64,000 bases of DNA from assembly GCF_004217135.1 (NCBI RefSeq), contig NZ_SHKK01000001.1, forward strand, positions 3,100,001 to 3,164,000, read 5' to 3'. Of the stretch, positions 27,752 to 43,555 are shown piece after piece. The notes under the pieces are model-generated. The model was not told where the DNA came from and did no database searches. It was given only the letters and a program-made list of their open reading frames with translations. The translations under genes and the position numbers were made by a program. This stretch comes from Micromonospora violae (GTDB lineage Bacteria; Actinomycetota; Actinomycetes; Mycobacteriales; Micromonosporaceae). Position 1 is the stretch's first letter, and the number at the start of each line of letters is the position of its first letter.

Positions 27752-29332
27752 TTACGGTTGAGCTTCCGCCGCCGCCCGTTCATACAGGCGGGCCGCACGC
27801 AGCGGGGATCCGTTCCCGCGATGCAGATCGGCCGCCTCCTTCAGGCGCCCGGCAAGTTCCGCTTCCATGGCGCGTTCGTGCCACGATGCCGCCTCGTCGT
27901 CCGGCGAGTGAGCACTGGGGCCCGGCTGGTCCTGGTCCAGCCGCAGATCGTCGAGCAACTGACGCAGGTCATCGTTCGCCGACTGGGGGACCAGTTCCGG
28001 CAGCTCGCCCACCCACAACGCCCAGACCGGAATCGCGGTGCCCGGATCGAAGACCCAGCAGCCGCGCGGAGTGAGCACCACTGCGCGACTCTGCCCGGCA
28101 TGGAACAGCTCGCGACGGGCTGACGGCGGCACCTGGGGGCGCAGCGAACAACCAAGAGGCAGATAGAGCGGGCCGGGCCCGAGGGCATACAGCGGCTGGC
28201 CGACCGGGATTCGCACCAGGATGCCGCCCGGCGCGATCAGCAGGTGCCGGTCGCGGCCCAGGAGGATCCGGGCGGTTTCGGCCAGCGGATCGCCCTCAAG
28301 TAGCAAACGGATGGTTGACAGCTCGGCATCGTCGACCAGCACGGCGTCCAGAGCCTGGCCCTCGGTGCGGCGCGGGACGATCCGTACCGCTGGCAGTTGC
28401 AGGTCTGGCAGCGCGGCCGGCGCTTCCTCCTCGATCAGCGGGTAGTCCTCGCCCAACTGGACCAGGCCGGCGCTGTCGGCGAACTCGCCGAGCGCGTCGA
28501 GGCGGCGACAGCCGAACGGCGAGGCGGCCAGGACCCACGTTCCGGCATCGACGAGACCGGCCAGCAGGTGGTCGTCGAGCGGGGCCGCAACGGTGTGTTC
28601 GATCAGCAGGTCGTCCTGGCTGCCCGCGATGCGGCAGGTGAGCGCGGCCGGATCCCGGGTCAGGGCGTTGACCAAGGACGGAGGCAGGTTGCCCCGATGC
28701 CCGGACACGGCCAGCTCGATCAGGGTTGTGGTGCCAGCCGGGCCGGGGAACAGCGGACTGAGGCGGACTGGCCGGTGGCGCACGTTCAGGCCCAGATCGA
28801 TGGCGCGCTGGATGATGTGCGCGGCGGCCGCACCGTCGAGCAGGATTCGGAGCCGTTCCACCGGACGGACCGGCACGCGGTGCACCCCCGCGGTCCGGAT
28901 CAGTGTCACGACGTCGCTGCTCACGAGAGTGTTCCGCGGTACGGCGGACTTCGTTTCGGAGACGCCCACCGGTGGCGGGCCGAAGCCGGGGTCGGGTAGC
29001 AGATGATCGCCGGCCGCCACGTACGCGGCAGCCGAGACCATCCGGGCGAGCTGCCGCCCGAGTTGCAGGTCAACCTCGGTGGTCACCCACCATCCGCCGG
29101 TCTCACCATCGCTCAGAACGGACAGGTCCGGCGCAGCATTGGTCGCCCGGAGGACGCCGACGAACGCCAGGGCGCCGGCGGCCGCCGGGAAGCAGCAGGC
29201 GAACAGGACGTCGTGGCGCTCCGGCGCGACCGGCTCTGGCGCCCGCTCGCTCGGCGACGGGACGCCCGGCTCGGTCGGTACCGGCTCCGGGCTCAAGGGC
29301 TCGATGCGTTGCATCGGTCGTGGACCGGTCAC
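27752..29332 (-). CDS. Conflict-system accessory protein (last gene of operon)
   Basis: A 526-residue cytosolic protein. N-terminal 35 residues are Pro/Glu-rich. The next about 130 (FACCFPAAAGALAFVGVLRA to ETKSAVPRNTLV) look like the accessory X-type domains that accompany MoxR/AAA/vWA ternary systems. The middle and C-terminus are beta-rich with repeats such as LLIAPGGILVRIPVGQPLYA and LPLGCSLRPQVPPSARRELF, as expected for a propeller- or sandwich-like platform. The last about 60 residues form helical, TPR-like repeats (ASWHERAMEAELAGRLKEAA). No catalytic motif was seen. GTG 29332 overlaps the stop of the preceding gene (GTGA). Confidence 0.7.
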   Translation of the reverse strand: MTGPRPMQRIEPLSPEPVPTEPGVPSPSERAPEPVAPERHDVLFACCFPAAAGALAFVGVLRATNAAPDLSVLSDGETGGWWVTTEVDLQLGRQLARMVSAAAYVAAGDHLLPDPGFGPPPVGVSETKSAVPRNTLVSSDVVTLIRTAGVHRVPVRPVERLRILLDGAAAAHIIQRAIDLGLNVRHRPVRLSPLFPGPAGTTTLIELAVSGHRGNLPPSLVNALTRDPAALTCRIAGSQDDLLIEHTVAAPLDDHLLAGLVDAGTWVLAASPFGCRRLDALGEFADSAGLVQLGEDYPLIEEEAPAALPDLQLPAVRIVPRRTEGQALDAVLVDDAELSTIRLLLEGDPLAETARILLGRDRHLLIAPGGILVRIPVGQPLYALGPGPLYLPLGCSLRPQVPPSARRELFHAGQSRAVVLTPRGCWVFDPGTAIPVWALWVGELPELVPQSANDDLRQLLDDLRLDQDQPGPSAHSPDDEAASWHERAMEAELAGRLKEAADLHRGNGSPLRAARLYERAAAEAQP

Positions 29333-29901
29333 TGGCCATTCCCTTCACCGAGTCCGGGCGGGAGCACGAGTTCTTCGCCGTACTCCCGTTTGAACCAGTC
29401 GCGCCAGCGCACCACCGCACCGGCGCTCCCCCCGCGCGCCGAGGCCGCGAAGATCAGGGCAGCCTGGTCGGGCCGGCGTAGGGCCGTCGCCACGGCGACC
29501 GCCCACTCCTCGATTGGATCGGCGGCGCCATCCGGCCAGGCCTGCAGACGCTGAACGTCACCGAGCACCAGGAGAATGCGTTCGGCGTGTATGTCCTGCG
29601 CTGCGTCGCATCGAGCTCGAACCAACTGCCAGCGGATGTCGTCCAACTGCCCGCGCTGCTCGACGAGCGCGCGAGCCGACTGGATGTCGTCGACCCGGTG
29701 TGCCAGGAGCCAAGCGGTCCAGAGGAACTGTCCTTCGGACAGGTATGCGTCGGCCGCCTCCCGGTACATCGCCTGCTCGACATAGGCGACGGCGGCACGT
29801 ATCGGCTCGCCCGCGGCGAGGAAGCAGCGTGCGGCATCCGCGGGGGCGGCGGCCTCCAGGTAGCACTCCGCCGCAGCCAGCATCAGAGCGCGGTCAGCCA
29901 T
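29329..29901 (-). CDS. TPR-like helical repeat protein of conflict operon
   Basis: A 190-residue all-helical protein with degenerate TPR-type repeats: ALMLAAAECYLEAAAPADAA, RCFLAAGEPIRAAVAYVEQA, MYREAADAYLSEGQFLWTAW. No enzymatic motif. The C-terminus (VVRWRDWFKREYGEELVLPP) is conserved-looking. It overlaps the end of the MoxR gene by 8 nt and the next gene by 4 nt. A scaffold or adaptor linking MoxR to its partner is the most natural role (inference). Confidence 0.7.
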   Translation of the reverse strand: MADRALMLAAAECYLEAAAPADAARCFLAAGEPIRAAVAYVEQAMYREAADAYLSEGQFLWTAWLLAHRVDDIQSARALVEQRGQLDDIRWQLVRARCDAAQDIHAERILLVLGDVQRLQAWPDGAADPIEEWAVAVATALRRPDQAALIFAASARGGSAGAVVRWRDWFKREYGEELVLPPGLGEGNGQ

Positions 29902-31081
29902 TCGGCTCGAAACGTTCGCGGTACGCCGCCACCGTCTCGCGCTGGGCCTGTTGCAGCTGCCCGAGCACCTCCTGCCCAGCGGGATGGTCCCGCTGCACCT
30001 CGGTGGTCAGGCGGTGCAGCCGCCGGATCACCTCGCGCCATTCGTCGGCCGTCTGCGCCGATTCCCGCAGCCGCATGATGTGGCGCACGTCGAGGCTGAT
30101 CTCCGTGATGTCCCGCACCTGACGGCCCCGCTCGAGCACCGACACCTGATGGTCGGCGAGGATGCGCCGGATCGAGACCTCGTCCTGCGGGAGTGTCCAC
30201 AGGTGCACCAGCTGCCCCAGGTCGGACAGCTCGGCCCGCGGACGGCCGGAGAGCAGCGCCGAGGCGGCGAACGTCTTCATGGCCTTGACCGCGCGGCGGT
30301 CCGAGAACACGACGCCCTCGGAGCGGAACGTCCGCAGGATCTCGGCGAAGGTGTCCCGGACGCCGCTGACGTCGACATCGGCCACCGCGTTCTGCAACTG
30401 GATGAGCTCGGTCAACGGAAATGTCACCTCGGTACGGGCGGTCACCGGCTCGACTTCGGCCGCCGCCGTGCGGATCCGGTCCCGTTCACCGCGCCAGCCA
30501 ATGTCGAGCACGTCCTCGATCAGGTCGTCGGCGACGTAGTCGAGGTTGCACCGCAGCAGGAACCGGTCGGAGAAGGCGGCAAGCAGCGGGTCGTCCGGGA
30601 TCTCGTTGGACGAGGCGAACAGCGAGATCAGGTCGAGCTCGACGGCTTCGCTGCCGTTGTAGAACCGCCGCTCGTTGACGATCGTGAGAAGCGAGTTGAG
30701 GATCGCGCTGCTGCCCTGGAAGACCTCGTCCAGGAAGGCGATGTGTGCGGTCGGCAGCATCCCGTCGGTGTTCACCCGGTAGCTTCCGCGCTGGAAGGCC
30801 GCCAGATCCAGCGGGCCGAACAACTCGGCCGGCTCGGTGAAGCGGGTCAACAGGTAGGCGAAATAGCGCACGTCGAGCAGCTTCCGCAGGCGGTCGATGA
30901 CGCTGCTCTTGGCGGTGCCCGGCGGCCCGATCAGCAGGGCATGCTCGCGGCACAGGGTGGCCATGGCGACGATGTCGATGACGTCGTCCCGGTCCACGAA
31001 CTGAGTTTTCACCTCGGCCAGCCGCGTCGCGTACGTCGCCGCCTTGATCCGGATGTCACGGTCGAGTTGGACCACGGTCAC
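29894..31081 (-). CDS. MoxR-type AAA+ ATPase
   Basis: A 395-residue MoxR/RavA-like AAA+ chaperone ATPase. Walker A GPPGTAKS at 52-59, Walker B-type AFLDEVFQGSSAILNSLLTI, sensor 1 in LFASSNEIPDDPLLAAF and arginine-finger region SDRFLLR. The lid follows (REVEVTF-like strand then SAVKAMKTFAASALLS-type helices). MoxR ATPases remodel targets together with vWA proteins; in NTP-driven conflict systems they form the ternary core with a second AAA ATPase. GTG 31081 lies 5 nt after the stop of the AAA gene. Neither partner is optional in known ternary loci, which supports this reading. Confidence 0.92.
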   Translation of the reverse strand: MTVVQLDRDIRIKAATYATRLAEVKTQFVDRDDVIDIVAMATLCREHALLIGPPGTAKSSVIDRLRKLLDVRYFAYLLTRFTEPAELFGPLDLAAFQRGSYRVNTDGMLPTAHIAFLDEVFQGSSAILNSLLTIVNERRFYNGSEAVELDLISLFASSNEIPDDPLLAAFSDRFLLRCNLDYVADDLIEDVLDIGWRGERDRIRTAAAEVEPVTARTEVTFPLTELIQLQNAVADVDVSGVRDTFAEILRTFRSEGVVFSDRRAVKAMKTFAASALLSGRPRAELSDLGQLVHLWTLPQDEVSIRRILADHQVSVLERGRQVRDITEISLDVRHIMRLRESAQTADEWREVIRRLHRLTTEVQRDHPAGQEVLGQLQQAQRETVAAYRERFEPNG

Positions 31082-31086
31082 GACGG

Positions 31087-33132
31087 TTACTCCTCTTCGG
31101 GGTCGGTGCTGGGCTCACTCGGCCGGATCACGGGAGCCGATCCGCCAGTCGGAACGGTTTCGATGACGGTCAGTTCGCGCTCGGGCGAGGAACGCCGGGC
31201 CGGTCGTCGTAACGGAGTGAGGACGGTGAAGGTTGCCCGCCGCCCCGGTCTGGTGCCCACTACCTCGGGGCTGTCAATTTCGTGTTCCTGTTGGCCGAGC
31301 CGGAGGGCGCCGACCAGTTCGCCGAGCCGGCGGGCGTCGGCTCGGCGGCGCGGCTCGCCGACCAGCTCGTCGGCGCGGGCGTCGCGGAAGATCGAGCGGA
31401 TCTCGTCGCCGTTCATCCGGTCCGTGGCGCGACTGATCCGGTCGAGCAGCCCGTCGGAGACCGGGATGCCGAAGTGCCGGGCGTGCACCTTGGCGATCTC
31501 CCGCCGGGCGAGCTCGTCCGGCAGGTCGATCCGGATCGGGCGGAATCGGCTCGGCCGCAGAAGAGCGTCGTCGATGATGTCGATCCGGTTCGTGGTGCCG
31601 ATGATCAGCACCGGCACTTCGGGACGGAAGCCGTCGAGCTCGGTCAGCAGCTGGGCGACGATCGCGTTGCCGGCCCGGCTGCCGCCGTCGCTACGGCCTG
31701 ACCGGCGCCCCGCGATGGAGTCGAACTCGTCGAAGACCACCACGGTCGGCGCGTTGCGGCGGGCCTCGGCGAACAGTTCGCGTACCTTGCGCTCGCTCTC
31801 ACCCACGTACATATCGGTAATCTCCGGCCCGGAGATCACCTGGATAGTGGCGTCCATCTTGTTCGCCACAGCCTTTGCGAACAGCGTCTTACCGGTGCCT
31901 GGCGGTCCGTGGAAGATGAACCCGCGCGGCACCAGGTCGTGTCGCAGGTCCTCGGGCAGGTCGACGGCGCCGCTGACGATCTTCAAGGCGCGTTTGAGCT
32001 CGTCCTTGACCGTGTCGTACCCGCCGATCTCCTCGAATGTCACCGTCGGCATCTCGAACGAGCTGGACGCCCGGGCCTTGAACACCCGCAACTCCTGTAC
32101 GAGGTCGGTGAAGCGGGGGCGCTCCGAACCGGCACCAGTCGTCGGCCGGTGCTGGTGGAAGGCGAAGCGCAGCGCATGCCGCAGCCGGACCGCGTTCATG
32201 CCGGCGATGTGCTTGTACAGCTCCGGTGCGTCGAACCCGTCGAACAGGTCTGCCTCCTCCCGGGTTACGAGGGCCTGGCCGATCGGGGTCCGGCCTCCGC
32301 CGGACGTCGTCACCTCGCGGGGCAGGATGTCGATCGGCATCTGCACGCCGAACCGGTTCGCCAGGACCTCGGGAACCATGAGCGACGGGTCGGTGAAGCC
32401 GAGCAGGATGCACTCACTGCGCGAATAGAGCACGTCGGTCAATTCCCGGCCCTCTAGCGTCAGCGCCGCGTCGCTGCCACCGGCCAGCAGGTCGAGATGC
32501 GGAACAACGACGACCTGGTGGTCTTTCGCCTCCCTGACCATGCGGGCCAGCGTGGCCAGCAGCGCGGCCCGGCGGCCGGTGCCCATGCTCATCACGTCGC
32601 CAACGGCCACGGCGGGCAGCTCGCCGAGCAGCGGCTCGCGCCCTGCCCGCCCCGGCACCTCGCGGACGAGGTGTTCGACCAGCAGTTTGTCACACCGGAT
32701 GAGCACCGACAGCCCGCTGTTGAGGTACGCAGCCGCTCGGTTGATCTCGACATGGTGGGCGGTGAGCACAGCCTCGCGCTCGCTGACTCGTTCCGGGTTG
32801 CCGTTCGGCAGAACACCCAGGGACGGTCCGGCCGCCGGCTGCGCCGAAGCGGAGGGGGCGACCTGCTCCGGTTCCGGCGCCGGTTCGGAGCTCGCGAGCG
32901 GCAGCGGGATGCCCGGCGGCAGGTACAGTGCGGCCGCGCCGAGCGGCTCGACGCGCAACGCCAGCGACTTCACCGGCACCTGCAGGTGTTCCTCGTCGAG
33001 GGGCTGCAGCCCGAATGCCGGATGCTCCCGCAGCAGGTCGCCAAGAGTGAGGTCCGGTTCGTCCATTCGCGCGATCGAGTACCGGTCGCTGAGGGCCTTG
33101 GGGTGAACTGCGGCTAAGGCGAGGGTAAGCAT
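31087..33132 (-). CDS. Cdc48/FtsH-like AAA ATPase with degenerate first AAA module
   Basis: A 681-residue protein. Residues 1-110 form an N-domain (LTLGDLLREHPAFGLQPLDE; LGAAALYLPPGIPLPL). Residues about 140-320 look like an AAA module that has lost Walker A and the DE pair (VVVVPHLDLLAGG). The active module has Walker A GPPGTGKT at 409-416, Walker B VVVFDEFD with D468-E469, sensor IIGTTNR and arginine finger LLRPSRF. It thus resembles proteasomal or Cdc48-type unfoldases, and could extract or unfold modified proteins. No protease domain (no HEXXH) follows, unlike FtsH. ATG 33132 starts 8 nt after the upstream stop. Confidence 0.88.
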   Translation of the reverse strand: MLTLALAAVHPKALSDRYSIARMDEPDLTLGDLLREHPAFGLQPLDEEHLQVPVKSLALRVEPLGAAALYLPPGIPLPLASSEPAPEPEQVAPSASAQPAAGPSLGVLPNGNPERVSEREAVLTAHHVEINRAAAYLNSGLSVLIRCDKLLVEHLVREVPGRAGREPLLGELPAVAVGDVMSMGTGRRAALLATLARMVREAKDHQVVVVPHLDLLAGGSDAALTLEGRELTDVLYSRSECILLGFTDPSLMVPEVLANRFGVQMPIDILPREVTTSGGGRTPIGQALVTREEADLFDGFDAPELYKHIAGMNAVRLRHALRFAFHQHRPTTGAGSERPRFTDLVQELRVFKARASSSFEMPTVTFEEIGGYDTVKDELKRALKIVSGAVDLPEDLRHDLVPRGFIFHGPPGTGKTLFAKAVANKMDATIQVISGPEITDMYVGESERKVRELFAEARRNAPTVVVFDEFDSIAGRRSGRSDGGSRAGNAIVAQLLTELDGFRPEVPVLIIGTTNRIDIIDDALLRPSRFRPIRIDLPDELARREIAKVHARHFGIPVSDGLLDRISRATDRMNGDEIRSIFRDARADELVGEPRRRADARRLGELVGALRLGQQEHEIDSPEVVGTRPGRRATFTVLTPLRRPARRSSPERELTVIETVPTGGSAPVIRPSEPSTDPEEE

Positions 33133-33140
33133 CGGCTGGG

Positions 33141-33995
33141 TTATCCCTTCGGCAGGAGGCCGAGACGCAGAATCGCGTCGAGGACCGGCCGGTGACCGTC
33201 CAGTAGCGGCCGCGACCGGAGCAGGTCGGGCTGGTCGCAGTCGAGCCGGGCGAGCGGGATCCAGAACCGCAGAACGGCGAGCGCATCCGACGGCCGGGCG
33301 CGCATTCGGCTCGCCTCGCGGATCGCGATGCGGATCCGCCGGTCCCAGGCCGGCCCGTGCCGCAGCCGGGCTAGAACGTAAAGGTCGAGAAGCCAGCCCG
33401 TACGGTTGGTGACCAGCCGGTCCAGCACCAGACTGCGCCATCGCAACGCGTCCGGGTCGGACGACGGTGCGGCCCAGGCGTGCCGGAGGACCCGCTCACC
33501 GCCGGGCCTGTCGAGGAGCTGGCCGGCGAGGGCCATCTCCGTCTCGTGGGATTCCGCCGCGAGGGCCTCCAGGGTGGGCCGGTGCAGGACCCGGGACAGC
33601 GGCGACACGGCAAGAAAGCTCTCCGCCAGTGGAGCCGCCTGCACCAGCGCGCGTTCGGTGATCGCGTGCCGGGCGAGCGCCGCCGACCAGCCGGCCGGCC
33701 CGGTGATCGGCAGCGGCTCGGCCAGACCGACCAGCCGCGTGGCGGCCTCGGCGCGGGCACCGAGCGCCGCGGCGAGCAGCACACCGCCGGTGTCGGCGGG
33801 CGTGTCGTCGCCGAACGGTGGTGAGCCGGCGCCAAGCCGGGCGGCGCAGGCAGCGGCCAGCACGGCGAGGCCGTGCCGGGTCTGTTCGCTGGGCGTAGCC
33901 AGGTCGCCCGCCGCCGTCAGGTCGCCGCTGGGGATCGGCCCCTCGGCGCGGATCGCCCAGCGCAGCACAGCCCGCGCTGTGGTCTCCGCGGTCAC
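33141..33995 (-). CDS. Helical protein of conflict operon, unknown
   Basis: A 284-residue, almost entirely helical soluble protein (ATTARAVLRWAIRAE at the start; VLRHAWAAPSSDPDALRWRS; IRIAIREASRMRARPSDALA; VLDAILRLGLLPKG at the end). I recognise no family. The GTG at 33995 overlaps the JAMM-peptidase stop (GTGA), and the AAA gene follows after 8 nt, so it is an integral part of the operon. HEAT/TPR-like adaptor function between the deconjugating peptidase and the ATPase is possible from position alone. Confidence 0.6.
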   Translation of the reverse strand: MTAETTARAVLRWAIRAEGPIPSGDLTAAGDLATPSEQTRHGLAVLAAACAARLGAGSPPFGDDTPADTGGVLLAAALGARAEAATRLVGLAEPLPITGPAGWSAALARHAITERALVQAAPLAESFLAVSPLSRVLHRPTLEALAAESHETEMALAGQLLDRPGGERVLRHAWAAPSSDPDALRWRSLVLDRLVTNRTGWLLDLYVLARLRHGPAWDRRIRIAIREASRMRARPSDALAVLRFWIPLARLDCDQPDLLRSRPLLDGHRPVLDAILRLGLLPKG

Positions 33996-34981
33996 GCGGC
34001 CTGCACCTGGTACGGCGCCGAGCCGATGACGCCCTGCTGGTCGGCGTAGAACCGCAGCACGCGCTTGTCTCCGTGCAGGTTGATCAGGCCGGCGATCTGC
34101 CAGTGGCGCCGGAAGGTGGAGGCGTGCAGTTCCAGGTCGATCGTGGACAACCCCATCTCGACCGTCGCCGGAAACAGGTGGGTATGGAACCAGCCGACCA
34201 GCTTCTCAGACTGACGTCGGGCCGCCACGGTTTCGCTGACCCGGACGAAGCTGTCGCCGGTGAACGTGAAGTGCAACAGCGAGGCGCCGGTCCGTTCGGC
34301 CGTGAGCACGGCGGTGATCAGCACGATGTGACGGTCGGGATGCTCGGAGTCGCGGTACGGGCGGCCGACGAGAAACCCCCCCTCTTCCACCTCGCGGGAC
34401 AATTCCATGTCGTAAAGCAACTGGTCGCGTACCTCTCGGGTGAGAATGACTCCCACCCGCCCGGAGGCGTCATCCTCGGGCGCGCCCAGACTTGCCGCCG
34501 TCGCCGAAGGCGGAGGTTCGGCGATCTCCTCGAGGTGGAACACCGGTTGCCGCCGCCGCGCCTGGATTTCGATACTTCCCTCGTTGGCCGGTGTGGGGCG
34601 GCTCAGTGACAGCCCGGCCAGGCCGTCCGCGATGATTCCGAAGCCCATTTCGTGCTCCTCAGGAAAGCTCTTGCCGAGCAGCTGCTGCAGCGGGTAGCCG
34701 ACGATTTCGCGTACCGAGTGCGGGTGCTGGTAGACCACCGTGGCACCGTGCCGGATCCGGACCTGTAGGTACCCGTGGCTGCCGCGCAGGTTGACGAGCG
34801 TCGGATTGCCACGCAAGGTGGTTCGGTCCTGGATCGGCAGCAGCGTCAGGTGGAATTCCGCCCCGTCCAGCGGCCGGCCCAGCAGGGCTTCAAAGACCGG
34901 TGTCAGCAGGTCGGTCAGCCCGACACTGCCGAACTTGGTGAGCGTGTCGGTCCGGTAGAGCTCCACCGCGGCGTGGGTCAT
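33992..34981 (-). CDS. JAMM/JAB metallo-isopeptidase
   Basis: A 329-residue protein. Residues 1-160 are an N-terminal beta-rich region (VELYRTDTLTKFGSVGLTDL; YLQVRIRHGATVVYQHPHSV) of no recognised family. Residues about 175-320 are an MPN+/JAMM domain: Glu199/Glu200 in VEEGGFLVG, His266-Thr-His268 and, ten residues on, Ser279-x-x-Asp282 (GLSTIDLELH). These zinc ligands are those of deubiquitinases such as Rpn11; the loop is three residues longer than the usual seven. It would cleave ubiquitin-like conjugates or process the modifier. Its ATG shares a base with the stop of the E2 gene. Confidence 0.88.
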   Translation of the reverse strand: MTHAAVELYRTDTLTKFGSVGLTDLLTPVFEALLGRPLDGAEFHLTLLPIQDRTTLRGNPTLVNLRGSHGYLQVRIRHGATVVYQHPHSVREIVGYPLQQLLGKSFPEEHEMGFGIIADGLAGLSLSRPTPANEGSIEIQARRRQPVFHLEEIAEPPPSATAASLGAPEDDASGRVGVILTREVRDQLLYDMELSREVEEGGFLVGRPYRDSEHPDRHIVLITAVLTAERTGASLLHFTFTGDSFVRVSETVAARRQSEKLVGWFHTHLFPATVEMGLSTIDLELHASTFRRHWQIAGLINLHGDKRVLRFYADQQGVIGSAPYQVQAA

Positions 34982-36537
34982 CAGAGAGCCTCGATGACGT
35001 TGCGGTAGGCCGTCTTGGCCGGCCTGTCGGGTCGCACCGGGCGGCCGCCCATCGCCACGATGAGGTTCTGGTTGGCCAGCACCCACCGGGCGGCCGCAGC
35101 GTCGTAAAAGTCGCCGAGCAGCTCGGGCCGTCCGTCCGGGCCAACGTCTCCGCTGGGCTGGAACACGGCGTAGTTGCGAAAGGCGACCATGTCGATCAGA
35201 GTTTCGAGAAGCTTTCCGAAGTGCAGACCCGGTGTGTACGCCTCGGCAAGCTCACCGAGGCAGACCAGTCCGCGCTGGTAGGGGCGTTCTCGGGCGGCGT
35301 CGCTGTCATAGTTCGGGTAGATGTTCGGGTGGAAGATCGGCGTCAGCCAGTAGGCGACCGGGGCGATCTCGGGAAAGTCGGGACGCAACCGAATCAGGAC
35401 GACGTGGTCCGACTGCGGGCGTGGCTCGCCGCCCGCGACATCAGGTGGCCCGAAGCTCGGTTGCTGAAACTCGATCTGGTACTCGGTCGGCAGGGTGATC
35501 GGCGCCGCGCCGACGACCATGTCGGGCCGACTCTCGGCGGCCTCCAAGATCTCGTTGCGGGCCCGGCTGAGCGCGTCCTGCCGGATCAGCGGGTTGACCG
35601 CACCCGCCGTGGCCTGGAAACCCACCCGCAGGTAACTGCGCTCGCTGACACCGGCGTCGTGCAGGGTCTGCTCCGGATCCAGCCGCCGGCCCTTGCCATC
35701 CACCTCGACGTGATCGACGACGGTCGGCCGAGCCCGGTCGGCGAAGCTGATGCCGTACTGGTTGACAACCTCCTGCGCGACGTTGCCGACTGTCTGTTGA
35801 GCGGGGGCGTCGACCAGCCGGAACCGGCGGCCGTCTGGCCCGTCCACGAACAGCTCACCGATCAGATAATCGCGGGCCGTCGGCGGCACCACGGTCCAGC
35901 CGATGTCCGTACGATCGAGAAGGCGCCGCAGGGCGCTCACTTCGGCCGTGTTGACCCGGAACGACACCGCGTGCGCGGTTGCCCAGACATCCTCTGGATC
36001 CAGGCCCAGTTGCTGCAGCGCCTTGGTCGCCTCGGCCCGGTCATCCTCGGAACTGGCCCGCACGATCACGTGGCAGGTGGCCGGCTCAGTCGCGCTCGAT
36101 GATTCGGGCGCGGTCTCGGCGGGCGCGGAGGTGGCCTCGGAAGCCGCGGGATCAGCCGCCGGCGGCGACGCGGGCTGGCCGCCGGTGGCGATGAGGCCGT
36201 AGCGCACGGCGAGGCCGCGGAACACCGGGTTGTACGCGTACACCCGCAGCGCCGCCTCGATCAGCCGCCGGTTCGGGTTGTGCACCACGCCAAGCCGCAG
36301 TTGCTGCCCGATCAGGGCCCAGTACTGGTTGGGCGTGTGCGCGGCGAAGTTGGGGCGCTGGGCTCGGGGGAAGCCGATCAGGTTGAGGACGCTTCCGGCA
36401 CCCGCCTCGTCGCTGAACGCCTCCGCGATCTCCCGCAGAAGATCCTCACGCTCGCCCTCGTTCAGTGGGATCTCCACGCCGCTCTCCGTGGGATCCGGTT
36501 GTCCGCCCGGTTCCCTCAGGAACTCAGCCTCATCCAC
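34981..36537 (-). CDS. EAD1 - ubiquitin-like - E2 (UBC-fold) fusion protein
   Basis: A 518-residue fusion. Residues about 25-108 form an effector-associated domain 1 (EAD1) (GEREDLLREIAEAFS; LNLIGFPRA; LRLGVVHNPNRRLIEAALRV). Residues about 222-310 look like a beta-grasp, ubiquitin-like domain (YLIGELFVDGPDGRRFRLVD; EVDGKGRRLDPEQTLHDAGV). Residues about 345-500 are E2-like: FPEIAPVAYWLTPIFHPNIY with HPN at 403-405 and catalytic Cys426 in GLVCLGEL. So it could receive a modifier from the adjacent E1 and transfer it. The GTG at 36537 overlaps the E1 gene by 22 nt. The fused UBL has no free diglycine tail. Confidence 0.85.
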   Translation of the reverse strand: MDEAEFLREPGGQPDPTESGVEIPLNEGEREDLLREIAEAFSDEAGAGSVLNLIGFPRAQRPNFAAHTPNQYWALIGQQLRLGVVHNPNRRLIEAALRVYAYNPVFRGLAVRYGLIATGGQPASPPAADPAASEATSAPAETAPESSSATEPATCHVIVRASSEDDRAEATKALQQLGLDPEDVWATAHAVSFRVNTAEVSALRRLLDRTDIGWTVVPPTARDYLIGELFVDGPDGRRFRLVDAPAQQTVGNVAQEVVNQYGISFADRARPTVVDHVEVDGKGRRLDPEQTLHDAGVSERSYLRVGFQATAGAVNPLIRQDALSRARNEILEAAESRPDMVVGAAPITLPTEYQIEFQQPSFGPPDVAGGEPRPQSDHVVLIRLRPDFPEIAPVAYWLTPIFHPNIYPNYDSDAARERPYQRGLVCLGELAEAYTPGLHFGKLLETLIDMVAFRNYAVFQPSGDVGPDGRPELLGDFYDAAAARWVLANQNLIVAMGGRPVRPDRPAKTAYRNVIEAL

Positions 36538-37529
36538 CGGTAATCCCCTTCTGTCGTACGGACGGGCAGAACCTCTGCTGGTGCGATGCCCAGGTCACAT
36601 AGCCGAGTGTCGCCAGCGGCGTCGAGGATCCGGCTGGTCGTCCGGGGCCGTTCACCGGGCGCGCCGGGCACGATGAACTCCGTCCAGGCCTGTGGTTCCG
36701 CGCCTGGCGGCAGCTCAGCGGCGAGTTCGGCCACCGTGGACCGACTGCCCGCCACGACCGGCTCCCGCGTGCCGAGCGGCCGGTGATGCAGGCATCCCGG
36801 GTCTCGGGTGACCTCCACCCGCCGGGTCTGCCCCGTGCCGCCGTCGAAGACAATGATTCCTGAATCCGCCGGCCGGCCGACGACCTCGCCCAGCACGGCG
36901 AGGCTGAGTTGGGCAGCGATCAGGGCGGTGGTGGCCACCATTGCTGCCGCCGCATGGTCGCCGGTGGCGTCGGCGCAGCTCCACGGCACATCGCTGCGGC
37001 CACGCTCGCGGGTTGTCAGTGTGCACGCGTAGCAGCCCTCTACGGTCGTCCGGCGGATTCGCACCTCACCGCCCCAGGACCCGGTGCCACCGTCAACCAG
37101 CAGCGCCTCGACCAGCGCGCAACGACTGAGGAGGTCCAGGCGGGCCCGGACACTGTCCAGGCAGCCCACCACCACGTCGGCGTCCGCCAGCTCGCCCAGG
37201 CCGATACCGGTGGTCAGGTCGCGGGTACGACCGGTCACCCGGGTTTGCGGAGCGAGCCGGTGCAGCACCTCGGTCGCGACCTGGACCTTGCCCCGGCCGA
37301 CCGGATCACCAGACGCGGCGCTGAACAGCACGCAGCGGCTGAGGTTGGACGGTGCGACGGTGTCCGGGTCGCAGAGCAGCAGATGGCCCACGCCGGCCAA
37401 CGCGAGGTTCTTGGCGACCTCGTTACCGAGTGCGCCGACTCCGGCGATGACCACGGTGGCCGCGGCGAGCCGGTCCTGGTCCCAGCCGGGGATCAGACGC
37501 TGCCGGGCGTACCGGTCGTCGCCGGTCAC
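36516..37529 (-). CDS. ThiF/E1-like adenylating enzyme
   Basis: A 337-residue E1-type enzyme. The N-terminus YARQRLIPGWDQDRLAAA is the standard ThiF/MoeB opening. ATP-binding: GVGALG at 30-35, Asp54 in LLLCDPDTV, Arg65 in SNLSRC and GRGKVQVA with the adenylation Lys. A candidate thioester Cys is in PWSCADATGDH. A C-terminal about 100-residue extension (AELPPGAEPQAWTEFIVPG) may recruit the E2. The GTG at 37529 overlaps the RING-like gene's stop. It adenylates and hands over a ubiquitin-like protein; which protein is not certain, since no separate UBL gene is present. Confidence 0.9.
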   Translation of the reverse strand: MTGDDRYARQRLIPGWDQDRLAAATVVIAGVGALGNEVAKNLALAGVGHLLLCDPDTVAPSNLSRCVLFSAASGDPVGRGKVQVATEVLHRLAPQTRVTGRTRDLTTGIGLGELADADVVVGCLDSVRARLDLLSRCALVEALLVDGGTGSWGGEVRIRRTTVEGCYACTLTTRERGRSDVPWSCADATGDHAAAAMVATTALIAAQLSLAVLGEVVGRPADSGIIVFDGGTGQTRRVEVTRDPGCLHHRPLGTREPVVAGSRSTVAELAAELPPGAEPQAWTEFIVPGAPGERPRTTSRILDAAGDTRLCDLGIAPAEVLPVRTTEGDYRWMRLSS

Positions 37530-38233
37530 GGGCGCACGCCTGCCCGGCGGGCCATGGTGATGGGGCAGGCACCGACAACTCCGTTCGGACGCCACGTCTC
37601 CCAGCACGTCAGGCCGGCGGCCGGGTCACGGTGGACGGTCGCGGCGCACTCCGGCCGTTGTGGGCTGCACGGACAGACCACGACGCGCTCGCCGACCCGC
37701 AGGGTGTGGGCGCAGACCAGGCAACGGGTGCGCTGCAAGGGCGCCGGTGGGCGGGCAACCCGCCAGTCGCCGGGCGCGAGCCGGAGCACGGTGTGGCCGG
37801 CCGGCCAGGCCGTTTCCACTCCATCGGCGAATTCGGCGACGTCGGTGTCCAGCAGTTCGACGGACGCCTCGCCGCCGGCCGGTCTGGGGCACTCGCCAGG
37901 CAGGTCGGCGTGGTACGCGGCGCGGGGTGTGACGGACACCTTTACGCGCTCGCCCCGGCGGAAGCTGTGCCCGCAACCATCGCACGACAGGTGGTTCCAC
38001 CACGAGTGCAGTCCGGTGACGGCCAGTCCGCTGACGTCACCCTGAAGGTATCGCTGTGGGTCGACGGCAGCCGCCACACCGGCCTCGAAGTCCGCTTCCT
38101 CATCATGCGAGTTCAGGGCCCACCCCACTCGGTTGTCCGCAACGGTATATGACTTCAAGCCATCGTCGAATGACGGAGGGTGAAACTCATCAACCGTCCG
38201 TCCTGTTGAGACTCGTCCTCCTCGGCAGCGCAA
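37526..38233 (-). CDS. RING-like zinc-binding protein, candidate E3
   Basis: About 205-235 residues with two Cys modules: CDGCGHSFRRGERVKVSV near the middle, and CLVCAHTLRVGERVVVCPC, then PEC, VH and C-W-E-T-W near the end, i.e. C-x2-C, C-x-C, C, H, C. This spacing fits a treble-clef/RING-like zinc fold such as the prokaryotic RING families found with E1/E2 genes. Directly followed by the E1 gene (GTGA overlap), so an E3-like role is the best guess. The start is unsure: TTG 38233 overlaps the CHAT gene by 44 nt; TTG 38158 and GTG 38128 are alternatives, none with a good ribosome-binding site. Confidence 0.75.
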   Translation of the reverse strand: MRCRGGRVSTGRTVDEFHPPSFDDGLKSYTVADNRVGWALNSHDEEADFEAGVAAAVDPQRYLQGDVSGLAVTGLHSWWNHLSCDGCGHSFRRGERVKVSVTPRAAYHADLPGECPRPAGGEASVELLDTDVAEFADGVETAWPAGHTVLRLAPGDWRVARPPAPLQRTRCLVCAHTLRVGERVVVCPCSPQRPECAATVHRDPAAGLTCWETWRPNGVVGACPITMARRAGVRP

Positions 38234-39029
38234 TCAAGCGGTTCGCCAGCCATCGGCACGACGGCTGGACCGAGGTCATCCGGTCGAGTGCGAGGCCGGC
38301 CGCCTCGTGCAGGTCTTTGGCGGTGATCAGCGCGCGATACAGGTGGGCGGTGAACGCCGGCGCGCACCCGTCGGCAAGCTCCCCGGCGAACGCGACCACC
38401 CGATCGGCGACGGACAGGAACCGTTGTGCCTGGGCCGCGCCGTCACACGAGGCCAAGTAGATGCCGCGCAGCCGATGCCGGCTGGTCCGCGCATACCCGT
38501 CAAGCAGACCGAGGAGGTCGTCGATGGCAACGGGCCGAGGACCGGACGGCCCTTCGAAGATCAGGAACTCGCCGTCGCCGTGGCAGGCGAGGTGCAGCAG
38601 GTGGGGCCGCTCGACCCCGAGGACGTCGAGGTCGGTGACGTCGGCGGCGAGACGGTAGGTCACTGAGATCCCAGCGCGCTCGACGGCCCGCACCGCCTCG
38701 GCGAGATCCCGGTCCGGCCGCATCGCGGGCAGGCCGTCGGGTGCGGCGCCGACCAGCATGACGCGGCGGATTCCGGTCGATCCGAAGATCGGGCTCGCCG
38801 GATACTGCGCCTCGGCGATCTTCAGGATGCGCTCGCTCCCGTTCTCCAGCACACCGGCGGCGATTTCGGCGTTGACGAGCCGCCAGAAGACTGCGGCGGA
38901 CACGCCGATCATGCTGGGGACATGGGCTCGGGGGAAGCCGGCCCGCTCCAGCAGGACGGTGGCGGGCGGCCCCAGCGGGTAGGCCTCGGCGAGCGCGGCC
39001 AGCTCCAGTTCGCTGAATGCCTCGTTCAT
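38190..39029 (-). CDS. EAD1-CHAT caspase-like protease
   Basis: A 279-residue protein. Residues 1-80 are an EAD1 adaptor (LELAALAEAYPLGPPATVLL; RAGFPRAHVP; GVLENGSERILKIAEAQ), related to the one on the E2 protein. Residues about 88-255 are a CHAT (caspase HetF-associated) domain with His150 in HLACHGDGEF and Cys195 in YLASCDGAA, the catalytic dyad. CHAT proteases act as executioners in conflict and defence systems. ATG 39029 overlaps the stop of the membrane-protein gene (ATGA) and follows GGAGGG. The shared adaptor suggests recruitment to the E2 complex. Confidence 0.88.
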   Translation of the reverse strand: MNEAFSELELAALAEAYPLGPPATVLLERAGFPRAHVPSMIGVSAAVFWRLVNAEIAAGVLENGSERILKIAEAQYPASPIFGSTGIRRVMLVGAAPDGLPAMRPDRDLAEAVRAVERAGISVTYRLAADVTDLDVLGVERPHLLHLACHGDGEFLIFEGPSGPRPVAIDDLLGLLDGYARTSRHRLRGIYLASCDGAAQAQRFLSVADRVVAFAGELADGCAPAFTAHLYRALITAKDLHEAAGLALDRMTSVQPSCRWLANRLIALPRRTSLNRTDG

Positions 39030-40495
39030 GCGGCCCTCCGGTGGTGTCGGGTGATCGCGGTTATCGCGGCAACCGCCACGCCGACCCCGAAGGCAAGCGC
39101 CGTGAACCGGCCCGGCAGCACCGTGCCGAACGCCTGGCGGGAAATCCAGGCGGCGGCCAGCCACAGCACCGACCCGGACACGAGCGCGAGCGCCGCGTCC
39201 GCCAGCCAGGCGCCCGCCGGCAGCACCAGCCGGATCGAGATCGCCGCCAGGTAGAGGGCGAACGCGCCGAGCGACGCGACCAGAGCCGGCTTCGCCGAGT
39301 TCGGCATCGGTACGGCGTACTGGAGCGACTGAATCGCGGTCAATCCCATCAGGACGGCACCGATCAGGGCCGCCTGGAGCAGCCCGAAACGTTCCATGCG
39401 CCGCCGGCTCGCCTCCTGCCGCTCCTCCAGCCGGCTTGCCAACACGCTGCCGGCCAGGTCGGTGAGCTGCTGCGCCCGGTCCCGGGTGATGGTGAGGTGG
39501 ATCAGGTCGTCGTCGAGGTGTGCCCGCAGGCTCTCGGCCAAGGCCAGGTCGTCGGCGAACGGCCCAGCCGGCGCAGCACCGTCCAGATGAGCACCGCGGG
39601 CCGCCGTCAGGTTCGCGGCGGCCGCCGTCGCGGCCTGCCCGGCGCGGCGGACCCAGGCGAGTGTGTCGACAGTCCCGGCCGATTCCGCCTGGGTGATCAC
39701 CACCTTCCCCCGTGCGGCCCGCAGTTCCTCTTCCGTCGCGGCCGGGCCCAGCACGTCGAGCAGCCGGTCGATCCCGTTGTCCGCGCGGGCCAGCAGATCG
39801 ATCGTGCGGCGCTCGTCGCGCCACACACGCGCCAATGCGTGTACCTTCGCCGCGTCGACGAGGTATCGGGTGAGCGGTGCGCGGGCGCCAGCCCCGGGAC
39901 TGAACAGCCACGCGCTCAGCGTCTCGTCGGTGCCGATCGGTGCCGCCACCACCAGGGTCCGGTCGGCCCGCCCGTCCTCGCCCGCGCCGCTCTCCCACAC
40001 CAGCCGATGTTTGGCGACCCGTGTCGGCGCCGGCCACCGATGGCATGCCTCCGGCAGGGCCTCCCGCGCTGCGGCCCCGATCGACGACTCGGTCACTCCC
40101 AACGGATAAAAACCCACATAAAGTCGCACAGTGCCCAACAGTCCCGCGTCGACGCCGGTCAGGAGGTCGTCCCACACGACGGCCAGATCCGCCCACGGGC
40201 TGGCCGGAAACTGCGGCGCGTTCGCCACCGACAGGCATAGAACCCCGGCTTCGCACCCGACAAACGCCTGGATGACCCCCGGTCCAGGGCCAGACGCGGC
40301 GGCAAGGGGGCCAGTCACGAGCCGGGGGACCTCCGGCGGCAGACCGGCGGGCAGGCCGAGAGCAGGCTCGGTGATGTCCAACGTGGTGGCGCACCGCTGC
40401 CACACCGTGCCCACCTGTCGGTAGGCCTCGGCCGCGTCCGGGCCGTCAAGCGGCGCGAACAGCTGAAGCACTGCTTGCCGTTCAGTCATTTCCAT
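39026..40495 (-). CDS. CATRA-like protein with C-terminal membrane domain
   Basis: A 489-residue protein. The N-terminal about 330 residues are soluble (RQAVLQLFAPLDGPDAAEAY; VWQRCATTLDITEPALGL; SLSAWLFSPGAGARAPLTRY-like). The C-terminus carries about four membrane helices (LLQAALIGAVLMGLTAIQSL; ALVASLGAFALYLAAISI; AALALVSGSVLWLAAAWI; ALAFGVGVAVAAITAI). This layout resembles the CATRA proteins annotated as partners of caspase-like and TPR proteins in actinobacterial conflict systems. It would place the complex at the membrane. ATG 40495 (GGAA upstream) or ATG 40489; both overlap the preceding small gene. Confidence 0.72.
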   Translation of the reverse strand: MEMTERQAVLQLFAPLDGPDAAEAYRQVGTVWQRCATTLDITEPALGLPAGLPPEVPRLVTGPLAAASGPGPGVIQAFVGCEAGVLCLSVANAPQFPASPWADLAVVWDDLLTGVDAGLLGTVRLYVGFYPLGVTESSIGAAAREALPEACHRWPAPTRVAKHRLVWESGAGEDGRADRTLVVAAPIGTDETLSAWLFSPGAGARAPLTRYLVDAAKVHALARVWRDERRTIDLLARADNGIDRLLDVLGPAATEEELRAARGKVVITQAESAGTVDTLAWVRRAGQAATAAAANLTAARGAHLDGAAPAGPFADDLALAESLRAHLDDDLIHLTITRDRAQQLTDLAGSVLASRLEERQEASRRRMERFGLLQAALIGAVLMGLTAIQSLQYAVPMPNSAKPALVASLGAFALYLAAISIRLVLPAGAWLADAALALVSGSVLWLAAAWISRQAFGTVLPGRFTALAFGVGVAVAAITAITRHHRRAA

Positions 40496-40820
40496 CGGAT
40501 TCCGATTCGGGCGAGGGAGGAGGCGGTTCGCTACGACGGTGCGCGATCCGAACGATCCGATCACGTATCGGCGGTGGTGGACCTTGTGGCGGCTCCGCGC
40601 CGAGCCGGGTGATGCGTCCGGGCCCGGTGGACTCGAGCAACGCGGCCGCGCTCCGCAGAGCGGCCGCGTCGCCGGCCGCCATCGCGCCGGCCACCTCGGC
40701 GAGCGCGGCGTCGACGGCCGGCCATCGGTCCGGCGGCAGCTGCCAGGTCTCAACCCTGGAGAGCAGCAGGTCGGTCTCCTCGGCAACCGCCCGGAAGATG
40801 ATCTCGCGCGCTGTCGTCAT
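40482..40820 (-). CDS. CATRA-associated small protein
   Basis: A 112-residue protein with a helical core: AVAEETDLLLSRVETWQLPP, DRWPAVDAALAEVAGAMAAG, DAAALRSAAALLESTGPGRI, then a Pro-rich tail. The W-x-LPP-x-RW and GD-x-x-AL pattern matches small proteins that are annotated as CATRA-system-associated (family recollection, not searched). No catalytic motif. It begins at an ATGA overlap with the Clp_N/vWA gene and ends 14 nt inside the membrane-protein gene, so stoichiometric coupled synthesis is likely. Confidence 0.7.
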   Translation of the reverse strand: MTTAREIIFRAVAEETDLLLSRVETWQLPPDRWPAVDAALAEVAGAMAAGDAAALRSAAALLESTGPGRITRLGAEPPQGPPPPIRDRIVRIAHRRSEPPPPSPESESDGND

Positions 40821-43555
40821 CGGGTTTCCAGGGCGAGGGCTGTACAGACGGCGGCGGCGAGCTCGGTCTCGCTGGGCTGATCGCTGAGGTGGGTGTGGAA
40901 CGGCCGGACGGCCGGATTCGCCGGCGCGTCTCCGGGCAGCTGCGCGGTGATCAGCCGCAACCAGGGCGTGCCGGTGATCGCGTGGTCAGCCACCAGGTGG
41001 TGCTGAGTGAGTAGTACCGACGGGCGGTCCGCACGCTGGCAGGACGCAAGCGCCGCGGACACGTCGGCCGGGTCCAGGCTGTAATGGGCCCAGGCGTTGC
41101 CCAGGTCCGACGGCTTGTGCACGGTAATCTCGACGGCCGGCTGGTCGAGAAAGACCAGCGTCGGCACCTGGCGCGCCGACCAGAGCGTCGAGACGACCGC
41201 GTGCACCACGATACGGAGCACCACGCCGACGGACCCAAACGTCGGCGGGCTGGTGTCCAGCACGATCCGCACCGAGCCGAGCGGCGGTTCGGTCTGCGTT
41301 TCGTGCAGCCGATAGAGCAGGCTGCGTTCGGCGAACCGGTGCACCAGCAGCTCCGGCGGCAGCGCCAGCTGCGAAGGAAGCAGGTTGGTGAGCTGCCCGC
41401 GCCGGCTGACCCCGGTCATCCCGGGCCCCCGGGCGGTGGACCCGCTCCGGGAGCGGGCCTCGACCGCCGGACGGGCACCGGACCATTCGAGGAGGCTCCG
41501 TTGCGGTCCGGTGAGAGCGGGCAGCGCGACCGAGTCCTGCCGCATCCGCAGCGGCAAGGCGGGATCCACCGCGACCGAGCCCGGCCCGACCACCAGCAGG
41601 CCGGTGACCGTGCCATCGGTGACGCGACGGCCGGCGTTCAGGATGACGCCGGTGTCCGGTAGCACGGGTTCCAGGTCCGATTCGGGCAGGCTGATGGCGC
41701 GGATGAGCGACGACCGCAGTTCGGCCGCCGAGACCGGCGGAGGGACATCGCCGGGATCGGGCGGAGCGTCGGCCCCGAGCAGCGCGGCGAAGCCGACCCG
41801 TGCCGCCGGCGGCCAGTTCAATTCGCGGAGCCGCCGGATGTCCGGGAGCGCGTGTACGGCAGCGAGGCGCTCGTCGGGCCGGGATGCGCAGTGGGTGAGC
41901 CGCACCACGTCGGCAACGAAGCCGAGCGGAAGGTACACGCCGGACTGCCCGAGCAATACCAGCCCCGACACGACCGCGAAGATGTCGGCGAACTGGTCAG
42001 GGCCGCGCGCCACCGAGCCGGCCTGCCGTCGCGCCCACTTCTCGACGGCGTCGCCGCACGTCGCGGCCGTCTCCGCGGGCTCAGCCGGCGCTATCCCCTG
42101 GTTCTGAGCGAGGGTTTGCATGACCTGTCGGCGGATGCGCTGGTAGTCGACACCGAGTCGGAGCAGCGCGGGAAGTGCTATGTCGTCGCCGACGTGGGTC
42201 ACTCCGAGGAGGAGATGCTCGGTGTCGATGTGCTCGACGCCGAGTTGCTGTACCTCGTCCTCGGCAGCGAACAGCGCGTCTTTCGTGCCGGAGTGAAACG
42301 GGATGTGCCCGGTCGGCTCGGTGGGGCCGCGGTCGGTGACCTCGTCAATCTGAAGCCGGAAGTTTTCCAGCGTGACGCCCAGGCTGATCAGGCTGCGGGC
42401 ACCGACGCCTTGGCCCTCGTGGAGCAGGCCGAGCAGCAGGTGTTCCACGCCGATGTGGGTGTGGTGGAGAAGCCGAGCCTCTTCCTGGGCCAGGACGATA
42501 ACCCGGCGTGCGCCGGCGGTATACCGCTCGAAATGACCGCTCCTGAAGCTCCGCGGACTCGGGATTGTCTCCCGAGCCCCGGTCTCAGCCTCGTCGAGCA
42601 GCTGTGATGCCGCCGAACGTGTGGCGTCCCGAGTAACGCCGAAGCGGGTCAGCAGCAGCGCGGCCACGCCCTCTCCCTCGCTGATCAGCCCGGCCAGGAT
42701 GTGCTGGGTCCCGATATAGGTGTCGCCCAGCTCAAGTGACTCACGCAGGGAGAGCTCGAGCACCTTCTTCGAGCGGGGTGTGAACGGGATATGACCGCTC
42801 ACCTGACTCTGCCCCCGGCCGATGATCTCCTCGATGTGCATCCGTAGGGACTCCAGGGCGACGTTCTGGCGAACAATCGCGGTGGCCCCGAGGCCTTCGC
42901 GCTCACCGATCACGCCAAGGAGGAGATGCTCGGTGCCGATGTAGTCGTGGTTGCGCATCCTGGCCTCTTCCTGGGCCAGGACGATGACCCGCCGCGCTCG
43001 GTCGGTGAACCGCTCGAACACGCCACCAGTCGTCACGGACCGCGGCGGGGCGCCCGGCGTCCGCTCGGCGGCCGGAGGCTGCTGAGCAGGCGTGGAACGC
43101 TGCTCGCCGGTGCCAGACTCACGCTCGTCGAGAAGCTCGATCACCTCGAGGCGGAGCCGGCGCAGATCGACGCCATGCCGGGCTATGACTTGGACGCCGA
43201 CGTCCTCCCCATCGCGGATCAGACCCAGTAGGAGGTGTTCGGTGCCGATATAGGAATGTCTCAGATGGAGTGCCTCACGCAGGGCGAGTTCAAGCACCCT
43301 TCTGTTACGCGGCGTGAACGGGATGTGCCCGCCTGGTGATACCACACCGATTCCGATCATCTCCTCGATCCACCTACGGGCTGACTCCAGGGACACCCCG
43401 CAGCGCGCCAGAGCCATCCCGGCGACGCCTTCGGTATCGTGGAGCAGACCGAGCAGGAGGTGTTCCGTCCCGATGTAGTTGTGGTTGAGCCCTCTGGCCT
43501 CTTCCTGGGCCAGGACGACGACCCGCCGCGCTCGGTCGGTGAACCGCTCGAACAT
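40817..43555 (-). CDS. Triple Clp_N array fused to a vWA-like domain
   Basis: A 912-residue first gene of the operon. Residues 1-146, about 178-322 and about 338-480 are three complete Clp N domains, each starting like ClpC (FERFTDRARRVVVLAQEEAR) and each with two TEHLLLG-type repeats; such domains bind substrates and adaptors of Clp unfoldases. No Clp AAA module follows. The C-terminal about 420 residues include a vWA-like part with a MIDAS-type D767-T-S-P-P-T and later TLVFLDQPAVEITV. ATG 43555 is chosen over the longer frame to 43648 because GGAGG precedes it and it matches the ClpC start. Confidence 0.85.
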   Translation of the reverse strand: MFERFTDRARRVVVLAQEEARGLNHNYIGTEHLLLGLLHDTEGVAGMALARCGVSLESARRWIEEMIGIGVVSPGGHIPFTPRNRRVLELALREALHLRHSYIGTEHLLLGLIRDGEDVGVQVIARHGVDLRRLRLEVIELLDERESGTGEQRSTPAQQPPAAERTPGAPPRSVTTGGVFERFTDRARRVIVLAQEEARMRNHDYIGTEHLLLGVIGEREGLGATAIVRQNVALESLRMHIEEIIGRGQSQVSGHIPFTPRSKKVLELSLRESLELGDTYIGTQHILAGLISEGEGVAALLLTRFGVTRDATRSAASQLLDEAETGARETIPSPRSFRSGHFERYTAGARRVIVLAQEEARLLHHTHIGVEHLLLGLLHEGQGVGARSLISLGVTLENFRLQIDEVTDRGPTEPTGHIPFHSGTKDALFAAEDEVQQLGVEHIDTEHLLLGVTHVGDDIALPALLRLGVDYQRIRRQVMQTLAQNQGIAPAEPAETAATCGDAVEKWARRQAGSVARGPDQFADIFAVVSGLVLLGQSGVYLPLGFVADVVRLTHCASRPDERLAAVHALPDIRRLRELNWPPAARVGFAALLGADAPPDPGDVPPPVSAAELRSSLIRAISLPESDLEPVLPDTGVILNAGRRVTDGTVTGLLVVGPGSVAVDPALPLRMRQDSVALPALTGPQRSLLEWSGARPAVEARSRSGSTARGPGMTGVSRRGQLTNLLPSQLALPPELLVHRFAERSLLYRLHETQTEPPLGSVRIVLDTSPPTFGSVGVVLRIVVHAVVSTLWSARQVPTLVFLDQPAVEITVHKPSDLGNAWAHYSLDPADVSAALASCQRADRPSVLLTQHHLVADHAITGTPWLRLITAQLPGDAPANPAVRPFHTHLSDQPSETELAAAVCTALALETR

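Follow-up and report, generated by a model that had tools for sequence, protein, structure and literature searches.

The thirteen genes between positions 27752 and 43555 of the analysed stretch of Micromonospora violae DNA (contig NZ_SHKK01000001.1; hereafter the window, 64,000 nucleotides, nt) appear on balance to be a member of the FtsH-type MoxR-vWA ternary systems, in which a JAMM metalloprotease would cut an EAD1-ubiquitin-like (UBL) module from its own E2 enzyme, E1, E2 and a RING-like protein would attach that module to targets, and an EAD1-CHAT caspase-like protease would be recruited. The novelty that the original prediction attached to the joining of these modules did not hold, as the combination is already known: Kaur et al. 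2020 (eLife, PMC7159879) described this type of predicted defence system as the complex variant of the "FtsH ternary system", their vWA-MoxR subsystem 3. The same paper proposes that the JAB peptidase cleaves EAD1-Ubl from a larger polypeptide, and its main text, searched for glycine and diglycine, gives no cleavage site. What is added here is a comparative test of that proposal, pointing to the bond after residue 312. The features on which it bears are the following (lengths in amino acids, aa).

34981..36537, minus strand: EAD1 - alpha/beta domain - UBL - E2 protein, 518 aa
35617..35865, minus strand: UBL within it, residues 225-307, assigned from the strand and helix order of the model and a weak YukD match under the cut-off
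35602..35607, minus strand: codons of Ala311-Gly312, the predicted C-terminus of the released EAD1-UBL
35044..35592, minus strand: E2 domain, residues 316-498, from alignment, model and fold search; Cys426 codon at 35260-35262
33992..34981, minus strand: fvmJAB_N-JAMM metalloprotease, 329 aa (PF20011, E 3.4e-36)
38190..39029, minus strand: EAD1-CHAT caspase-like protein, 279 aa (EAD1 E 1.6e-10; CHAT E 2.8e-5 with 24.2 bits, barely over the cut-off of 24)

All 121 rows of the E2 alignment (120 homologues listed and aligned of 173, plus the window) carry Ala at residue 311, and at residue 312, just past the last UBL strand, 79 carry Gly and 42 Ala; a separate alignment of 40 rows has Gly in 38, Ala in one and a gap in one. 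On a tree from which the tail columns were excluded, two changes suffice for the Ala-312 group. The diglycine expected at the end of a UBL was not found here. In the model, residues 308-315 form a loop linking the final UBL strand to the E2 helix, E2s of the PDB align from approximately 312-320 onward, and in distant fused relatives length variation starts immediately after the Gly312 position. At a second locus of Frankia sp. QA3 (L030, in genome G591, taken as this strain by inference from coordinate agreement) the EAD1-UBL open reading frame (ORF) terminates exactly at the Gly312 equivalent, and the E2 is found in another ORF about 6 kb upstream, with a match beginning at residue 312. By eye, a MoxR-like ORF stands between these two, and E1 is on the opposite strand. 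Among the planctomycete and Chloroflexi sister loci (L048 and L050-L089) the UBL is its own frame in 41/41, ending exactly at Ala-Gly in 28 and carrying 1-11 extra residues in 13. This count took the motif PE.[VTI]AG anywhere in the locus, with the smallest extension used; 38/41 were read directly upstream of the E2 at first and L062, L084 and L088 in a further reading, L074 and L088 are cut by a contig end, and L049, which carries the motif within a fused protein, stands outside the 41. At L043 (9758-11194) and L044 (8239-9774) UBL, E2 and JAMM form a single polypeptide beside E1; at neither locus does the sequence read contain a match to AAA or MoxR. Comparison and model place a sharp UBL/E2 boundary at residue 312, and release of EAD1-UBL by JAMM after Ala311-Gly312 is likely. 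Residues E199, H266, H268, S279 and D282 of the JAMM protein are kept in 38/38 rows, its metal site being intact, and against PDB sequences it gave no match up to E 0.1.

EAD1 occurs twice in the whole genome by Pfam search, both times in this operon. Over 17 loci, the EAD1 of the UBL-E2 protein scored on average 89.7 against the CHAT EAD1 of its own locus and 69.7 against those of other loci, a result equalled in 0/10,000 shuffles. CHAT residues His146, His150 and Cys195 (codon 38445-38447) are kept in 17/17 rows, these being the 16 that match beyond residue 200 and the window, and the CHAT protein had no match among PDB sequences up to E 1.

Several of the comparisons weigh against release and recruitment of this kind. 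The CHAT partner of the same locus ranks first in only 4/17 EAD1 comparisons, and shared ancestry can explain the similarity within loci. At the junction, the Ala-Ala branch (42/121) counters a simple Gly rule; the residues flanking the bond are conserved (A313 in 110/121, N315 in 106/121 and P316 in 120/121), as would fit a structural hinge; and 121/121 rows are fused across it, in a search whose length filter would miss a short free UBL. The junction data would suit an arrangement that is unlikely and still deserves weight, in which the UBL is never released, the EAD1-UBL-E2 protein is a single scaffold whose UBL merely docks E1 or RING, and JAMM has another substrate. A scaffold does not sit well, however, with independent genes that end at precisely residue 312, with linker length that varies directly after it in distant relatives, or with invariant JAMM residues. 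The Ala-Ala objection is also made milder by CBASS, which accepts Gly or Ala at the C-terminus: when 1,583 cGAS sequences whose operons encode Cap2 and Cap3 are aligned, they end in a highly conserved Gly or Ala, and a change of the cGAS C-terminal Gly to Ala reduced conjugation and did not abolish it (PMC10097602).

Membership of the FtsH-type ternary systems can be judged further from the neighbourhood of the E2 in relatives. A scan of genome contigs with the E2 alignment gave 79 loci (the best 80 of 216 confirmed stretches), 34 of which are FtsH-type (L011-L029, L031-L042, L045, L047 and L049; L030, L043, L044, L046, L048 and the sister loci L050-L089 excluded). With E2 present by construction, BLAST matches beside it include, on the same strand, RING in 33, E1 in 33, JAMM in 34, AAA in 33 and MoxR in 32, and further fvmX1 in 30, the twelfth gene of the operon (G12) in 26 and fvmX7 in 26; fvmX2 matches by profile in 30, and a separate EAD1-CHAT-like ORF is present in 16. 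Some of the absences are explained by contig ends and weak similarity; L014 ends before AAA and MoxR. Hosts are actinobacteria and also Nostoc, Thiohalocapsa, an acidobacterium, Saprospiraceae and a Desulfobacterales record. This shared neighbourhood supports the earlier claim that the parts form one unit.

Because E2 is present by construction in that census, a second was anchored on the AAA protein. At E 1e-80 it matched in 5/394 genomes of the class, 4/5 having E2 and JAMM alongside. One of these four, G410, shows neither E1 nor RING on a contig of 15.7 kb, and G658 (L158) has matches in the order X1-AAA-MoxR-X2-G12-X7 and none to JAMM, E2, E1 or RING across the 19.9 kb read; its fvmX1 match is partial, and loss of the tagging genes by erosion is possible. 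Routine absence of the tagging genes, or their separation from the ATPase genes, had been named in the original prediction as the pattern that would tell against it. That pattern was not seen, with RING, E1, JAMM, AAA and MoxR each present in 32-34/34 E2-anchored loci and E2 and JAMM beside the AAA gene in 4/5 AAA-anchored genomes. By eye, the UBL-E2 protein of L046 (9212-10852) has an N-terminus resembling a helix-turn-helix domain.

In the same 394 genomes the E2 protein matches over its E2 half in 5, and at E 1e-8 in 25, the other 20 covering approximately the EAD1 part only. There was no match in the two genomes of the same genus that were sampled, and a near copy (96% identity) came from another source. 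In a phylum-wide sample, which is thin, fvmX1 was over cut-off in its own genome only (1/396; 3/396 at E 0.001). A mobile origin was considered and rejected: the E2 protein has no relatives in plasmids, phages or viral contigs, and fvmX1 none in viral contigs. Plasmid matches to the AAA protein number 1328; each has less than 60% identity and falls short of 80% query coverage, those listed being generic AAA ATPases. Housekeeping remodelling or turnover of proteins by a Cdc48- or proteasome-like route is an improbable main role in place of defence. Its basis would be the AAA half, which resembles PAN/CDC48/FtsH, and the mention by Kaur et al. (PMC7159879) of a related Ubl system beside Pup conjugation with possible routing to degradation, but distribution is sporadic (E2-half match in 5/394), the caspase-like effector bears EAD1, and the kin are described in the same paper as conflict systems.

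The remaining genes of the operon are these.

40817..43555, minus strand: Clp_N array protein, ATG at 43555; array at about residues 1-505, E 1.4e-80, six stretches
about residues 528-912 of the same protein: C-terminal domain homologous to the C-terminal 'vWA' position of FtsH-ternary proteins (L011, L012, L014, L016, L017, L018 and L021)
40482..40820, minus strand: CATASP, 112 aa (PF20271, E 5.2e-23)
39026..40489, minus strand: CATRA-N/CATRA-C, 487 aa (PF20269, E 2.2e-41; PF20270, E 2e-19; NCBIfam BN6_48550, E 7.7e-84)
37526..38233, minus strand: RING-like zinc protein, start uncertain (TTG 38233); Prok-RING_1 E 0.089
36516..37529, minus strand: E1 (ThiF family), 337 aa; ThiF E 8.4e-39
33141..33995, minus strand: fvmX1, 284 aa (PF19998, E 8.6e-53)
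31087..33132, minus strand: AAA ATPase, FtsH/PAN/Cdc48-like; AAA E 1.4e-41
29894..31081, minus strand: MoxR ATPase; bpMoxR E 1.9e-73, RavA E 1.8e-35
29329..29901, minus strand: G12, 190 aa, whose identity rests on position in related loci
27752..29332, minus strand: fvmX7, 526 aa (PF20005, E 1.8e-45)

The thirteen minus-strand ORFs, their tight spacing and the uncertain RING start were borne out. Gene order is Clp_N array, CATASP, CATRA, EAD1-CHAT, RING-like, E1, EAD1-UBL-E2, JAMM, fvmX1, AAA, MoxR, G12 and fvmX7, and adjacent genes, the uncertain RING start excepted, overlap by 1-22 nt or are separated by 5-8 nt (ClpN/CATASP -4, CATASP/CATRA -8, CATRA/CHAT -4, RING/E1 -4, E1/E2 -22, E2/JAMM -1, JAMM/X1 -4, X1/AAA +8, AAA/MoxR +5, MoxR/G12 -8 and G12/X7 -4). 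The RING gene may start at the TTG at 38233, 44 nt into CHAT, or at starts internal to the frame; analyses and residue numbering of its protein use 38212, a GTC codon, from which the overlap with CHAT is -23. GC at codon position 3 is 0.77-0.92 across all thirteen genes. A promoter and terminator scan gave no signal above chance. The same strand carries, at window positions 43722-45466 and 166 nt upstream of the start of the Clp_N gene, a LuxR-type response regulator and a histidine kinase. This two-component pair was rejected as a part of the system because its matches are scattered (L067, L068 and L079 among the 79 loci) and absent from FtsH-type loci.

HMM searches, which had been proposed for each protein, placed 11/13 products over the curated Pfam cut-off, the families being Clp_N, CATASP, CATRA-N/-C, EAD1 (twice), CHAT, ThiF, fvmJAB_N, fvmX1, AAA, bpMoxR and fvmX7. 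YukD and UQ_con in the EAD1-UBL-E2 protein, Prok-JAB in the JAMM protein and Prok-RING_1 in the RING-like protein (non-significant) fall under the cut-off, and G12 has no Pfam match up to E 1. PADLOC, run on 10/13 proteins, matched only E1 (the E1-E2 and BilD models among 25 listed of 32) and AAA (IetA and TRIP13). Pfam matches, conserved residues and modelling uphold the EAD1-CHAT, E1, EAD1-UBL-E2, JAMM, AAA and MoxR assignments. His403-Pro-Asn and Cys426 of E2 are kept in 121/121 aligned sequences and Cys185 of E1 in 37/38 rows, the remaining row being a gap; the catalytic roles of such residues are read from known families. Structure prediction denied neither of the two folds in question. 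The E2 fold is predicted with confidence; the rows listed in the fold search with the whole protein were all E2, so that its EAD1, alpha/beta and UBL parts were barely probed. The alpha/beta domain, predicted by the model at residues 156-217, was missing from the earlier parts list. The RING fold is moderately supported, by ligands C164, C167, C180, C182, C189, H194, C203 and C216 in 34/34 rows and by a model with a pLDDT (predicted local distance difference test) of 77.3, for which the best PDB fold rows are RING-H2. The AAA protein has a single P-loop (GxxxxGKT, residues 409-416) in its C-terminal half and none in its N-terminal half.

Two of the earlier assignments stood only in part. The "Clp_N array with vWA-like end" does carry the array, and neither Pfam nor a profile search of PDB sequences up to E 10 matches its end to vWA, the resemblance resting on homology to C-termini in related loci; a protein in L018 that shares this domain has weak beta-propeller matches under the cut-off. 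Of the "two CATRA-like proteins", one is CATRA-N/-C and the other is CATASP. The CATASP-CATRA pair lies inside the operon, preceding EAD1-CHAT, and among the 79 loci CATRA and CATASP matches occur otherwise only in L033, on the opposite strand. Since an EAD1 match stands alongside in 14/29 CATRA loci fetched (flanks of about 1.5 kb each, too short to judge links to FtsH-ternary genes), CATASP-CATRA-EAD1-CHAT can be read as an effector cassette, separate elsewhere and here brought into the operon.

The window copy also differs from its relatives in fvmX2 and Clp_N. Commonly adjoining MoxR in most relatives, fvmX2 was detected with a profile built from 28 of the same 34 loci, Pfam confirming both matches tested. 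It gave no match in the window or in the whole single-contig genome (G000), and strong matches in three of the five genomes searched; it is absent also from Frankia QA3 (L012/G591), which retains the tagging genes, AAA and MoxR. Among these loci, L011 alone shares with the window a vWA-like protein that bears a Clp_N array. Positions 4982-7147 of L011 encode Clp_N repeats fused to fvmX7, and because of this fusion Clp_N is suggested to be a swappable sensor domain. That the window copy is decaying or partly disabled, its active sites conserved only because the loss of fvmX2 is recent, is more improbable still than a housekeeping role, for although fvmX2 is missing from window and genome with strong matches in three of the other four genomes searched, and the E2 protein is without a match in the two same-genus genomes, none of the thirteen frames is interrupted and all show coding bias, Frankia QA3 likewise lacks fvmX2 with its other genes retained, and a 96%-identity copy of the E2 protein exists in another source.

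Set beside the complex FtsH ternary system (PMC7159879), the operon has in common MoxR, FtsH-like AAA, JAB, E1, a RING-like protein, EAD1-Ubl-E2, EAD1-caspase and system-specific helical proteins, together with the Pfam names fvmJAB_N, fvmX1 and fvmX7; the paper also names a rare variant whose vWA protein bears ClpN repeats. Of the components that mark the class, MoxR, JAB with an intact metal site, E1, EAD1-Ubl-E2 in one protein (the UBL part by model strand order and the YukD match under the cut-off) and EAD1-caspase are present here. Differences lie in the absence of fvmX2, a Pfam name common in relatives and not given as defining where Kaur et al. 2020 describe the system, and in the CATASP-CATRA pair inside the operon. 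The published system has two AAA domains, the first without P-loop and Walker B, whereas the P-loop here is only in the C-terminal half; its divergent vWA is fused to beta-propeller or ClpN, here represented by the Clp_N array without a vWA match; and its prokaryotic RING-type E3 would correspond to a protein with Prok-RING_1 at E 0.089 and a moderate RING-H2-like model. Simple forms, without ubiquitin-like genes, and complex forms are given there as about 30% to 70%. The paper also states a link to FxSxx-COOH peptide-processing genes for most FtsH ternary systems; TIGR04268, which marks that link, had no match in the M. violae genome, where an equally silent control makes the result uninformative. 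No experimental study of the class was found in a literature search that lacked most subscription papers and bioRxiv.

TERNS3 (Kaur et al. 2021, PMC8195603) likewise joins E1 and an EAD1-bearing Ubl in a MoxR-vWA-related system, but with Ubl and E2 as separate components, each with EAD1; L030, which has no match to AAA, fvmX1, fvmX7 or RING, is similar by eye. CBASS Cap2/Cap3 shares bacterial E1/E2 conjugation, the Cap3 isopeptidase and the C-terminal Gly or Ala, whereas the protein conjugated is a cGAS-like enzyme without a beta-grasp fold (PMC10097602), and no CD-NTase or cGAS-like family is among the Pfam matches of the thirteen genes, to which the search was limited. BilABCD has UBL, E1, E2 and JAB/JAMM genes together, with two UBL domains in BilA, apart from the E2 BilB (PMC11354881), in contrast to the window, where by the model a single UBL shares one polypeptide with EAD1 and E2.

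The proposed mechanism builds on what sequence and model give: the gene set, its neighbourhood in relatives, the conserved catalytic residues, the E2 fold and the UBL/E2 boundary at 312. The Clp_N array would sense a trigger, and the neighbouring JAMM, as is likely on comparative grounds, would cut EAD1-UBL from its own E2 after Ala311-Gly312. E1, E2 and RING are predicted from their conserved sites to attach EAD1-UBL to target proteins, EAD1-EAD1 contact is predicted, as published, to bring the EAD1-CHAT protease to the tag, and MoxR and AAA may remodel proteins, with anti-phage defence or cell death as the possible outcome.

More tentatively, the modifier may be EAD1-UBL itself, a tag that has its own executioner-docking handle and is cut from its E2 by JAMM at one C-terminal Gly (Ala in one branch of the family); tagging a protein would then also bring the caspase to it, and the Gly-or-Ala rule may be common to bacterial immune conjugation with and without the ubiquitin fold. 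The comparative result offers a reason why Ala-Ala relatives could still work and turns into a precise prediction, namely a JAMM-sensitive bond after residue 312 and an EAD1-UBL fragment on targets. If true, the tag itself would carry the protease-recruitment domain, a compact bacterial parallel to ubiquitin-driven cell death.
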